DNA from: a bacterium
Lineage (GTDB): Bacteria; Sumerlaeota; Sumerlaeia; SLMS01; JAHLLQ01
Length of the DNA: 64,000 nucleotides
Direction of reading: 5' to 3'
NCBI GenBank assembly: GCA_020444065.1
Contig: JAHLLQ010000006.1
Coordinates: 124,001 to 188,000 of the forward strand
Of this stretch, positions 40,978 through 44,787 are shown piece by piece. Position 1 is the stretch's first letter. Every line of letters begins with the position of its first letter. Below the pieces are notes generated by a model. That model saw only the letters and a program-made list of their open reading frames with translations, had not been told where the DNA came from and did no database searches. Both the position numbers and the translations under genes were made by a program.

Positions 40978-41424
40978 ATGAGTTCCCCACACCCCCCGCG
41001 CGATCCGAAGCAGCTCCTGGTGGAAATGGACGCCCGGATCAAGGTCCGCGACATCCGCGAATGGGAGAAGCTGAAGCACCAGGTTTCGATCAAATGGTGG
41101 GAATCCGGCCTCCTGTTGCTCCTCTTCCTCAGTGGCCTCGGGATCCTCGTGACCATCGCGAAGCTGGTTCCGCGCGATAATGGGTTGCTGTACGCGTTCA
41201 TTCTTGTCTGGTTCGGACTATTCGTCCTCGCCGTGATTGCGTGCCTCGAGTTCCTGGTTCTGAAGTTTCGCGCCCTGCGCCGGATGCAGACCGAGATGAA
41301 TCGGCATCTCCTCGATCAGGAGAAGGCGATGAAGGCGATACGCGATTATCTGGAAGCGCGTGAGGAGTTTCTGTCCTCATCCAGCGAAGAAGAGCCTGAA
41401 GCAGAAAGCGGCCAGACCACTTAG
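40978..41424 (+). CDS. Small two-helix membrane protein with charged C-terminus
   Basis: A 148-residue protein. About 45 charged residues come first (P-R-D-P-K-Q, R-I-K-V-R-D-I-R-E-W-E-K-L-K), then two hydrophobic helices at ~48-66 and ~76-99, then a charged coiled-coil-like tail (R-A-L-R-R-M-Q-T-E, ending in S/E-rich residues). No known family. The ATG at 40978 has AAGGAA about 8 bases upstream; the longer open frame before it lacks a family match. It lies between divergent rpoD and the convergent AAA+ gene and could be a membrane scaffold. Confidence 0.62.
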   Translation: MSSPHPPRDPKQLLVEMDARIKVRDIREWEKLKHQVSIKWWESGLLLLLFLSGLGILVTIAKLVPRDNGLLYAFILVWFGLFVLAVIACLEFLVLKFRALRRMQTEMNRHLLDQEKAMKAIRDYLEAREEFLSSSSEEEPEAESGQTT

Positions 41425-41471: not shown

Positions 41472-42911
41472 CTAGCTTTGCGTCTTTTCCTGTTCTTCGC
41501 GTTCCCGCTCTGCGGCGGCGCGCTCTTCGAGGAGACGCTCGATCATCTTTGTGTCTTCCTCACTGATATTGTCGGTCACGCTCGCCTGCAATTGCTCGCC
41601 AAGTTTCGGGAAGGACTTGCTGACGCGTTGGATGATCCCATCAATCTCGCGCAGGTTGTCGGCGACTTCTTCGGTCTCCGCAATGATGTCGCCATCCTGC
41701 ATGAGCTCATTGGTATCTTCACCTGCAAGCAGGAAACGACGATAGATATCGCGCACGGTGACGACCGCATCGGCTTCGCGCCGGTTCAGCAACGCGACCT
41801 GGCGGCGCAGCGCCATGATGGAATCGATGCCGCGATCCAGCTCGGCCTCAAGCGCATCGGGCAGCATCTCGAGGATGTTCTCGCCGGACATGGAGAACTG
41901 ATCCGACGATTCTGCCTTCTCGCCGGCAATCGGTCCAGCCATTTGACGCGCAAGAATCTGCGACTGAGCATTGAGGCGCCGCGCCAGGGTGACGAGGCGC
42001 TGCAAACGCTGGGCGCGCTCTTCCTGCTCTTCCTCTGAGAGGGGCTCGCCGATCAGGCCTGTCGGCGCTGCTTCCTTCTTCGGAGCCTCGGCGACGGGTC
42101 GGACGGGAACTGGTGGCTCAACGCGCGGAAGGCGAACTTCGCGGGCTTCCTCGATAAGATCCGGCGGCAGGAGTCCGAGGAATTCTTCGGGGAGATCATC
42201 GAGCGAGATCAGTTCAGCCTTGGCGTTGAGGGCCGCCTCGGCCGTGACCAGCAAAAGGTCTTCCGAGTTGCCCGGCCATCTCCACTGACGGAACAGCGCG
42301 AGAACCTGGGCGTCTGCGCCGCGGGCGTTGCTGCGGCCGGTCTCTCGAGCACGCGCCGTCGCATAGCGGACCAACGCGGGAATATCCTCGGGACGTTCGC
42401 GAATCGGTGGAATGTTTACGTGATGTCCGCCAAGCAGTTCGCGCAGCTCGGGCAGAATCCCGCGCCCGCCGGGCGAATGCAGTTCGGGCTCGTGCGATGT
42501 CAGGACAATGCGCACATCGGCCTTGATTCGACGACCGAGCGTCGGGTCTTCGTAGCCGCGATCATTGACCAACTCCAGCAGCAGATACTGCAGATCGATC
42601 GGGAACTCGCGCTGTAGATTGATCACCAGCGTTCCATCGGCCGCCGTCCGCAGGTGGTCGCCCATGTTGGAAGGCAGCTTCCAGGTGATCGAGATTTTCG
42701 CAATTGGACGACTGGCCCGGTGACTGTGGTGATGGAGCAGTTTGGCGGCAAAGGACTTCTCTGTCCCCGTCTCGCCAGTGATCAGGACCGGCAAGTCGTC
42801 GTCGGCAAAGCTCTGGATCTGCTGATTGATCTCCGCCAGGGCGGCGGAGATGCCAGGAAGGAGTTGTGGAAGGTGCGCCTGGGAGACTGACACAATGTGC
42901 CTTTCGTCCAA
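41472..42911 (-). CDS. Degenerate sigma-54-activator-like AAA+ protein
   Basis: A 479-residue protein related to the central domain of NtrC-type activators, but missing key parts. A Walker A-like G-E-T-G-T-E-K-S (46-53) is present with Glu in place of the usual Gly. The G-A-F-T-G-A loop for sigma-54 contact is absent and the segment is shortened. The Walker B region reads A-D-G-T-L-V-I-N-L-Q without the D-E pair. Later blocks (P-P-I-R-E-R-P-E-D-I-P near 168-178, W-P-G-N near 212-215) are kept. Instead of a DNA-binding Fis domain, the last ~230 residues are Pro-rich then coiled-coil, rich in Arg, Glu and Ala. It therefore is unlikely to activate sigma-54 transcription. Role unknown; a nearby membrane protein and pseudo-phosphatase are neighbours. 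Confidence 0.78.
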   Translation of the reverse strand: MDERHIVSVSQAHLPQLLPGISAALAEINQQIQSFADDDLPVLITGETGTEKSFAAKLLHHHSHRASRPIAKISITWKLPSNMGDHLRTAADGTLVINLQREFPIDLQYLLLELVNDRGYEDPTLGRRIKADVRIVLTSHEPELHSPGGRGILPELRELLGGHHVNIPPIRERPEDIPALVRYATARARETGRSNARGADAQVLALFRQWRWPGNSEDLLLVTAEAALNAKAELISLDDLPEEFLGLLPPDLIEEAREVRLPRVEPPVPVRPVAEAPKKEAAPTGLIGEPLSEEEQEERAQRLQRLVTLARRLNAQSQILARQMAGPIAGEKAESSDQFSMSGENILEMLPDALEAELDRGIDSIMALRRQVALLNRREADAVVTVRDIYRRFLLAGEDTNELMQDGDIIAETEEVADNLREIDGIIQRVSKSFPKLGEQLQASVTDNISEEDTKMIERLLEERAAAEREREEQEKTQS

Positions 42912-43100: not shown

Positions 43101-43622
43101 CTACTCCTTGACGTGCAGCTTCTTCTTCAGCTCCTCGCGCTTAGCGGGGTCGATGTCCTCCTGGTCCAGCAGGTCCGCCAGTTTGGCCGCGTTCGGGGCC
43201 ACCGGGAAGTAGCCGCACTTTGGCAGGAACTCGGGGCTCGCATCGAACAGGAGTGCCCGTGGGTAGTCTCGACACATGCCCGGTCTGGAATGGTACGAAT
43301 CGCAACGACGCGTCTTCGTATCAAAATGGGTGCATTTGAAGACAAAAGCGTTCTGCCGCGGCAGTTCGGACGTCAATTCAAAGCCGTTGACGCGCTTGTG
43401 CCAAGCCAGCATCAGGCGCCTGATCACCCGCGATCGGAAGTAGATCGGGTTTGTCTGAACAACCGGCGATTCACAGCATTGGGCGCACTTCTCACACGCT
43501 CCGCCGAGCCGATAGACGGATTTCCCCTGCAGTCGCCACAGAAAGCGCGTGGCGCTCAAGTCGATCGTGAAGCAAACCAGAGCGATTCGCTTGACGATAG
43601 TTCTGATGGGCCCGTCCTTCAT
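43101..43622 (-). CDS. YkgJ-family cysteine-cluster protein
   Basis: A 173-residue protein of the YkgJ/UPF0153 zinc/iron-chelating family. Its cysteines are set as C-x2-C-x2-C-C, then C-x-H, then C-D-S-Y-x-x-R-P-x-x-C-R-x-Y-P and a final K-C-G-Y, the family pattern thought to hold a metal or Fe-S site. A hydrophobic stretch near 12-30 may be a membrane-associated helix. The ATG at 43620-43622 follows GGAAGGA at 6 bases and is preferred to a Met 16 codons earlier. It lies upstream of the AAA+ gene on the same strand, 190 bases apart, so co-transcription is possible. Confidence 0.82.
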   Translation of the reverse strand: MKDGPIRTIVKRIALVCFTIDLSATRFLWRLQGKSVYRLGGACEKCAQCCESPVVQTNPIYFRSRVIRRLMLAWHKRVNGFELTSELPRQNAFVFKCTHFDTKTRRCDSYHSRPGMCRDYPRALLFDASPEFLPKCGYFPVAPNAAKLADLLDQEDIDPAKREELKKKLHVKE

Positions 43623-43728
43623 TTGATCCTTCCGTCGTGGCTGCGCGTTACGGTCCTTGACGACTGCCACAGAGGCAAAAAGAATATGCGCGGACAGGAG
43701 ATGATCTCAAGGGGTACGCGGCGGTTCC

Positions 43729-44787
43729 ATGCAAATCCTGTACGTCAGTTCATCGGATTTGATCCGGGCGCCGATGGCGCGTGTGCTGAGCATGAAGCTG
43801 GCCGCGGAGATGAACGCGATCGGCTCGAGCTTCGAAAGCGCCGGCCTGGACGTGGAAAACGCTGCTCCTCCCCCGCTGCCGGTCATCCAGTTTCTCCGCA
43901 GCAACCGATTGAACATCTCGAAACATCGCAGCAAGCCGGTGGATAGCCCGATTCTGCGTCGCACGGATCTGATCGTCTGCATGACGCACGATCTCGCCAA
44001 GCGCGCCCGCTCGGTCGTTGGTGCAGAGCACGAGGGCAAGATCGTGATTCTGAACGAGGCGGTCGGATTTGGCCGAACGCCGCGTGAAAAGGATATCCAA
44101 GAGCCGGAGATTCTCGAGTACGGCCCGCTGCTGAGTCTATATAGCCAGTTGAAGGCCTCTGTCGGCAGGCTCTGCCGAATACTGAGCGAGGCAGACGTCA
44201 CGCCGGCCGACTTTGGTGCTGTCGAGACGGACACGATGCCGGAGCATTTCCTCGACGATCCGCATCTGCGGCATTTCCTGGCGCATTACATCCATGAGTT
44301 CATCGAACGCGCCTTCGAGCCGCCGGCAGTGAAGCAAATCCAGGAAGCCCTGGAGGCCATGGGGCGTCCGCTTTCGCGCCTTGATGTGGAGGAACTGCTG
44401 CGCACCGATCTTCGTGGGCAAGTGAAGCGCACGCACGATGGATGCTGGGAAATCGATGCGACAGCCGCTCGGGAAAAGGAAGAGCAGGCCCGTAAGGAGC
44501 GCGAGCAGAAGAAGGCAGAAGAAGCGCGCCGTGCCCGGGAGAAGGCCGAGCGCGAGAAGGCCGCCCAGGAACAGGCCAACATGAGTATCGACGAGGCGCT
44601 CGATATCCTCTCGGTCACGATGCAGACGCCGCGCGAACAGGCTCAGAACACGTATCGTAAGCTGCTGATGCGGTACCACCCCGACAAGTTCCACGATGAC
44701 GAAGACTTCCGCAAGATGGCCGAGTCGAAAACCAAGCGCGTCAACATCGCGTGGGGGATGCTGAAGGATCGCCTGCCGGCGGGTTGA
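43729..44787 (+). CDS. Pseudo low-molecular-weight phosphatase fused to a J domain
   Basis: A 352-residue fusion. Residues 1-150 match the low-molecular-weight tyrosine phosphatase fold (I-L-Y-V near the start, I-R-A-P-M-A, S-x-G-L, then an R-T-D-L-I-V-C-M region). The catalytic P-loop, normally C-x5-R, reads S7-S-S-D-L-I-R13, so the nucleophilic Cys is Ser; the general-acid D-P is E-P. Hence it should not act as a normal phosphatase. Residues ~155-250 are an unfamiliar helical part, followed by a Lys/Glu/Arg-rich coiled coil (~255-290) and a C-terminal J domain (~290-352) with the H-P-D motif. J domains stimulate Hsp70 ATPase, so it may recruit a DnaK. I do not know this architecture from a described family. 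Confidence 0.82.
   Translation: MQILYVSSSDLIRAPMARVLSMKLAAEMNAIGSSFESAGLDVENAAPPPLPVIQFLRSNRLNISKHRSKPVDSPILRRTDLIVCMTHDLAKRARSVVGAEHEGKIVILNEAVGFGRTPREKDIQEPEILEYGPLLSLYSQLKASVGRLCRILSEADVTPADFGAVETDTMPEHFLDDPHLRHFLAHYIHEFIERAFEPPAVKQIQEALEAMGRPLSRLDVEELLRTDLRGQVKRTHDGCWEIDATAAREKEEQARKEREQKKAEEARRAREKAEREKAAQEQANMSIDEALDILSVTMQTPREQAQNTYRKLLMRYHPDKFHDDEDFRKMAESKTKRVNIAWGMLKDRLPAG

Follow-up and report, generated by a model that had tools for sequence, protein, structure and literature searches.

What is left of a bEBP when the parts that make it a sigma-54 activator are gone, and what would such a protein be kept for? Both questions are raised by a gene in the window, the 64,000-nucleotide stretch of DNA analysed here, whose product the initial annotation had read as a sigma-54-activator relative stripped of its activator parts. 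We call this protein and its orthologues pseudo-bEBPs. The ORF lies at 41472-42911 on the reverse strand and has 479 codons when read from TTG. Its place holds, but the TTG at 42911 is the less likely start: GTG 42893, which gives a protein of 473 aa, is probably the true one, since 10 of the 11 N-termini aligned carry a GTG, and the other an ATG, shortly before LPGIS, and in the window copy GAAAGG lies 6 nt upstream of the GTG. Only a short N-terminus precedes the AAA+ core. Pfam finds no receiver domain and no HTH anywhere in the protein, and no HTH family match in any of nine pseudo-bEBP C-termini, which agrees with the reported loss of the Fis domain after the AAA+ part. Functional sigma-54 activators usually, but not always, carry a C-terminal HTH. 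The features are collected in Table 1.

Table 1. Features of the pseudo-bEBP gene and its neighbours in window coordinates, with residues in 479-codon numbering.
Feature	Position	Strand	Basis or context
Pseudo-bEBP gene, probable GTG start	41472..42893	-	ORF list, aligned N-termini, orthologues
AAA+ core and lid, bEBP type, residues ~16-244	42180..42866	-	Pfam, AlphaFold, structure matches
P-loop changed to GETGTEKS, residues 46-53, with Glu for the last Gly of canonical GExGTGKE	42753..42776	-	Alignment
Site of missing L1 loop/GAFTGA, residues 77-91	42639..42683	-	Alignment
Former Walker B VINLQ, residues 96-100	42612..42626	-	Alignment
Former RxDxxxR arginine-hand, now LPELREL, residues 153-159	42435..42455	-	Alignment; motif as given in PMC3419264
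WPGNSEDL, residues 212-219; canonical WPGNxREL	42255..42278	-	Alignment
Acidic helical C-terminal domain, residues about 291-479, pI 4.5	41475..42041	-	Models, composition, phylum search
Small ORF with membrane-like stretch	40978-41421	+	One flank of the pseudo-bEBP gene; rpoD (-) beyond
CxxCxxCC protein	43104-43670	-	Other flank of the pseudo-bEBP gene
Low-molecular-weight phosphatase (PF01451) fused to C-terminal DnaJ (PF00226)	43729-44784	+	Pfam; beyond the CxxCxxCC gene

The AAA+ fold and its replaced residues

A profile search for similar proteins recovered the bEBP AAA+ core and lid above the Pfam cut-offs, with 51.3 bits for PF00158 (cut-off 20.2), 47.9 bits for PF14532 (Sigma54_activ_2; curated cut-off 25) and 47.2 bits for the lid PF25601 (cut-off 27). 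The AlphaFold model has core pLDDT values mostly of 80-91; Foldseek matches it to FleQ at E about 1e-13, and VIA aligns 230 residues with NtrC1 1ny5_B (Z 22.8, rmsd 2.9) and 232 with FleQ 6jdi (Z 22.5, rmsd 2.9). NtrC1, FlrC, LuxO, FleQ and PspF are among the matches by fold and by PDB sequence profile. The fold marks named in the initial annotation, GETGTEKS, RERPEDIP and WPGN, are all found in the translation, although the first of them is kept only as letters: as a P-loop it is already broken compared with the canonical GExGTGKE. PDB 3n70, an example of PF14532, can be superposed on the model along 135 residues (Z 16.1, rmsd 3.1). Most of the listed matches in the class to this 138-position profile span about 171 codons, which suggests that the L1 segment is missing from the profile too. 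PF14532 is a domain family and not a functional class, and the helical C-terminus of the pseudo-bEBP lies outside it.

Motifs were compared by aligning 10 pseudo-bEBP rows with 20 canonical bEBP paralogues from the genome of the window copy. This 5.2-Mb genome has 26 PF00158 matches, from which we left out the pseudo-bEBP itself, four weak matches of 23-32 bits, and L092, which the P-loop filter missed. By inspection, L092 (G000:C3:593809-594309) is an RtcR-like sigma-54 activator in which GAFTGA is present. On the family side, 15 pieces came from 12 genomes, and five contig-end fragments were not counted; two of these, L049 and L052, include the P-loop and have GTEK there as well. P-loop counts are out of nine, since one family row begins after it.

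The last Gly of the P-loop is Glu in 9/9 family rows and Gly in 20/20 canonical rows, so that the Walker A pattern GxxxxGK is intact in none of the nine. The P-loop Lys, K52, is retained in eight of the nine, with Arg in one, and in 20/20 canonical rows. The L1/GAFTGA segment, about 20 columns long, is absent from 10/10 family rows, and GAFTGA, GSFTGA, GSFSGA or GAFTDA is present in every canonical row. Both Walker B acids, found in 20/20 canonical rows, occur in none of the ten family rows, where the Asp has become N, Q or H and the Glu L or V. At the columns that we take, from general knowledge of bEBPs, to be sensor I and sensor II, the former has lost its Asn (0/10 against 20/20) and the latter reads Glu 217 in 10/10 family rows in place of the Arg found in 20/20 canonical ones. 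The two Arg at positions 153 and 159, which belong to the RxDxxxR arginine-hand described for bEBPs (PMC3419264), are likewise each present in 0/10 family and 20/20 canonical rows. The losses of the GAFTGA loop and of the Walker B acids claimed from the single sequence are thus both borne out on alignment, and the changes at the P-loop Gly, sensor I, both arginine-hand residues and sensor II go beyond that earlier list. What separates the pseudo-bEBP from canonical bEBPs such as NtrC1, FleQ, PspF and LuxO, with which it shares the AAA+ core and lid and the RERxEDIP and WPGN marks, is that it keeps only the P-loop Lys of the ATPase residues, has neither GAFTGA nor HTH, and ends in an acidic helical domain.

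Loss of the ATPase activity, indicated by replacements at the key pocket positions that were examined, and of the sigma-54 activity is strongly supported by these alignments. The protein would neither hydrolyse ATP nor touch sigma-54; the latter, already suspected in the initial annotation, fits the absence of the L1 loop from all 10 rows compared. ATP binding has probably gone as well, although with K52 kept in 8/9 rows some weak nucleotide binding may persist.

Distribution, selection and descent

In an alignment-based search of 39 genomes of the class (E <= 1e-30), all 12 genomes of the order matched and none of the 27 others did. The C-terminal domain alone was found once in each of the 12 order genomes and in 0/28 other genomes of the phylum. 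The gene is whole in eight order genomes, split at contig ends in three, and represented by its C-terminal half only in one. In a homologue search, matches outside the order had E values of 1e-22 or weaker and were no closer than ordinary bEBPs. Scanning 84,980 named genomes with two peptide patterns, which distant relatives outside Sumerlaeota could escape, gave 10 confirmed loci, all in MAGs labelled Candidatus Sumerlaeia or Sumerlaeota apart from two labelled only 'bacterium'.

Five within-genus pairs gave dN/dS values of 0.26, 0.29, 0.06, 0.16 and 0.15, which are rough, as some pairs are close to saturated with synonymous changes. At 10 of the 228 positions compared, the family and the canonical group each have a conserved residue, but not the same one (G->E51, A->K78, E->L99, R->E113, R->D122, R->L153, D->E155, F->A184, R->E217 and E->D218), and several of these are former catalytic sites. 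As judged from the sequences, the replacements arose long ago, are the same throughout the family and are maintained by purifying selection within a single order of Candidatus Sumerlaeota.

Two trees were built, one with the genome's own 20 canonical bEBPs and a second with five relatives added, three of them degenerate. The family forms one clade with a stem support of 100% in both, with its sister group left unsettled; support is low among the canonical bEBPs and weak at some nodes of the enlarged tree, and long-branch effects are likely. The family stem measures about 2 substitutions per site, its inner branches are shorter, and branching within it largely tracks two taxonomic families, a pattern that fits one burst of change followed by vertical descent.

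The class also holds other degenerate bEBPs. By inspection, L098 (G001:C9:37500-40500, ORF from 534, forward strand) is a receiver-AAA-HTH response regulator whose AAA part has the P-loop GEMGTETD and neither GAFTGA nor the Walker B acids. Its relatives are L102 (G035), without GAFTGA but with GTGK, and one at G008:C79. L097 (G018:C618, reverse strand), again by inspection, joins a receiver to a degenerate AAA part without L1, and spans PF14532 exactly, with 138 positions in 414 bases. L097, L098 and L102 were considered as intermediates. In the tree they branch outside the pseudo-bEBP family, as its closest neighbours in the direction of the canonical bEBPs (support 72-75 between them). Given this placement we treat them as separate losses, which is what they look like, though a shared origin with the family is possible.

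The helical C-terminus and the gene neighbourhood

An acidic helical C-terminus is common to all pseudo-bEBP copies compared. After a low-confidence linker, AlphaFold predicts long helices at about 293-325, 351-395, 407-433 and 451-478, with low to moderate confidence, and a separate model of the C-terminal part has a pTM of 0.29. The coiled-coil end that the protein had been said to have gained is therefore upheld as far as predicted helices go; a coiled-coil oligomer is read from the helix prediction only. Foldseek gave 0 matches to the C-terminal model at E <= 0.001 and nine, all weak, at E <= 10. We claim no new fold, the model being too uncertain, and the only Pfam names to come up, CDT1_C with a score under its cut-off and TBCA in a single weak match, were not adopted. 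The tails of orthologues L043, L050, L046 and L039, from genera g2 and g3, are acidic, those of g3 being long, and repeat E/D-rich Thr motifs (for example DEETHP and EETLAADF) that may be phosphothreonine sites.

Neighbouring genes were compared by BLAST, and ten were named by Pfam; a small gene caller, trained partly on the pseudo-bEBP family, was used for listing neighbours only. No partner gene emerged from this comparison. The neighbours mostly differ across genera and are common to close genera only, as with a downstream ORF cluster common to g2 and g3, and the neighbourhood was accordingly rejected as a clue to function. The PADLOC matches are to RtcR-type CARF-AAA-HTH models and cover only the AAA part of the pseudo-bEBP; we did not read them as a link to defence. 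A canonical bEBP with intact motifs, L088, lies about 400 bases past the end of the window (G000:C6:188410-188913).

Possible roles of a bEBP relative without its key motor residues

That selection keeps the pseudo-bEBP across an order suggests a new, non-motor job. Proteins that stay strictly conserved without catalysis most often serve by binding. The new invariant residues of the family, which would sit partly at the former pocket and the subunit face, together with the acidic helical tail, would suit a protein used as a scaffold or as a regulatory partner, and we consider it probable that the pseudo-bEBP is a non-catalytic pseudo-AAA+ protein of bEBP descent that acts as one, joined via its helical C-terminus. 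Scaffold or sensor, as the initial annotation had offered, is the most likely description of its role. The reshaped pocket and subunit face would bind a partner protein or a small ligand, the helical C-terminus would oligomerise the protein, and it may work alone as a scaffold or regulatory partner. Arginine-hand variants of PspF are reported as constitutive hexamers (PMC3419264), so assembly and ring contact without these residues are conceivable. That helices can act on bEBP rings is shown by PspA, an inhibitor of PspF that binds across the side of its ring and, in modelling, does so with its first two helical domains (PMC3791423). A more specific and rather speculative version is that the motor was converted once, in the ancestor of the order, to a nucleotide-independent block whose pocket and arginine-hand became a fixed interface between subunits or with a partner, so that the protein either assembles constitutively into a scaffold, as a ring or a filament, or specifically silences canonical bEBPs.

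Several other readings start from the same losses. FleT of Cereibacter sphaeroides is likewise a bEBP without receiver or DNA-binding domain, and is reported to work only when hetero-oligomerised with FleQ (PMC7175178, PMC11999139). A pseudo-bEBP that, in the same manner, entered or capped canonical bEBP hexamers as an inactive subunit and changed or blocked their activity would find sigma-54 and 20 canonical bEBPs encoded in its genome, and the hexamers of the PspF variants make ring contact without the arginine-hand residues possible. This is nonetheless doubtful, because both the P-loop side and the arginine-hand side of the canonical subunit interface are changed, the FleT complexes are reported as active whereas the pseudo-bEBP has almost no catalytic residue to give, and no bEBP gene adjoins it among the Pfam-named neighbours, a subset of all neighbours. 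The emptied nucleotide pocket could instead bind another small molecule and signal through the helices, much as FleQ and VpsR bind c-di-GMP. The invariant residues at pocket positions suit such a sensor, and structures of both proteins with c-di-GMP in their titles are among the fold matches, yet the helices would have to be its sole output domain, and we hold this to be improbable.

The remaining readings fare worse. GAFTGA loss is a common mark of regulators in which L1/GAFTGA is deleted or changed, such as the NtrC proteins of R. capsulatus and Caulobacter, VpsR, TyrR, DhaR and HupR (PMC10274813, PMC3162934), and the pseudo-bEBP could be a sigma-70-type transcription regulator that has lost only its sigma-54 contact, like R. 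capsulatus NtrC, VpsR or TyrR. These sources describe such proteins as transcription regulators, and Caulobacter NtrC requires its Walker A and Walker B residues (PMC10274813); the pseudo-bEBP has no Walker B acids. Pfam finds in it neither the HTH nor the receiver domain, which makes this reading very unlikely. Decay to a pseudogene might account for so many missing catalytic residues, but its probability is close to nil: the frames are intact, the replacements are uniform, and both the occurrence in 12/12 order genomes and dN/dS values of 0.06-0.29, well below 1, contradict it.

bEBP relatives without GAFTGA (PMC3162934, PMC10274813) and bEBPs without receiver and DNA-binding domains (PMC7175178) were already known. 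Searches of the open-licence PMC literature showed no protein that in addition lacks the ATPase residues and has a helical domain specific to its family. Domain matches alone would mislabel the pseudo-bEBP as a sigma-54 activator. Pseudo-enzymes reveal what a fold is good for after catalysis goes, and this is a clean case: throughout one order, selection maintains a family whose key motor residues and DNA-binding part have given way to others. The pseudo-bEBPs thus offer a control, supplied by nature, for telling where a bEBP ring depends on ATP.
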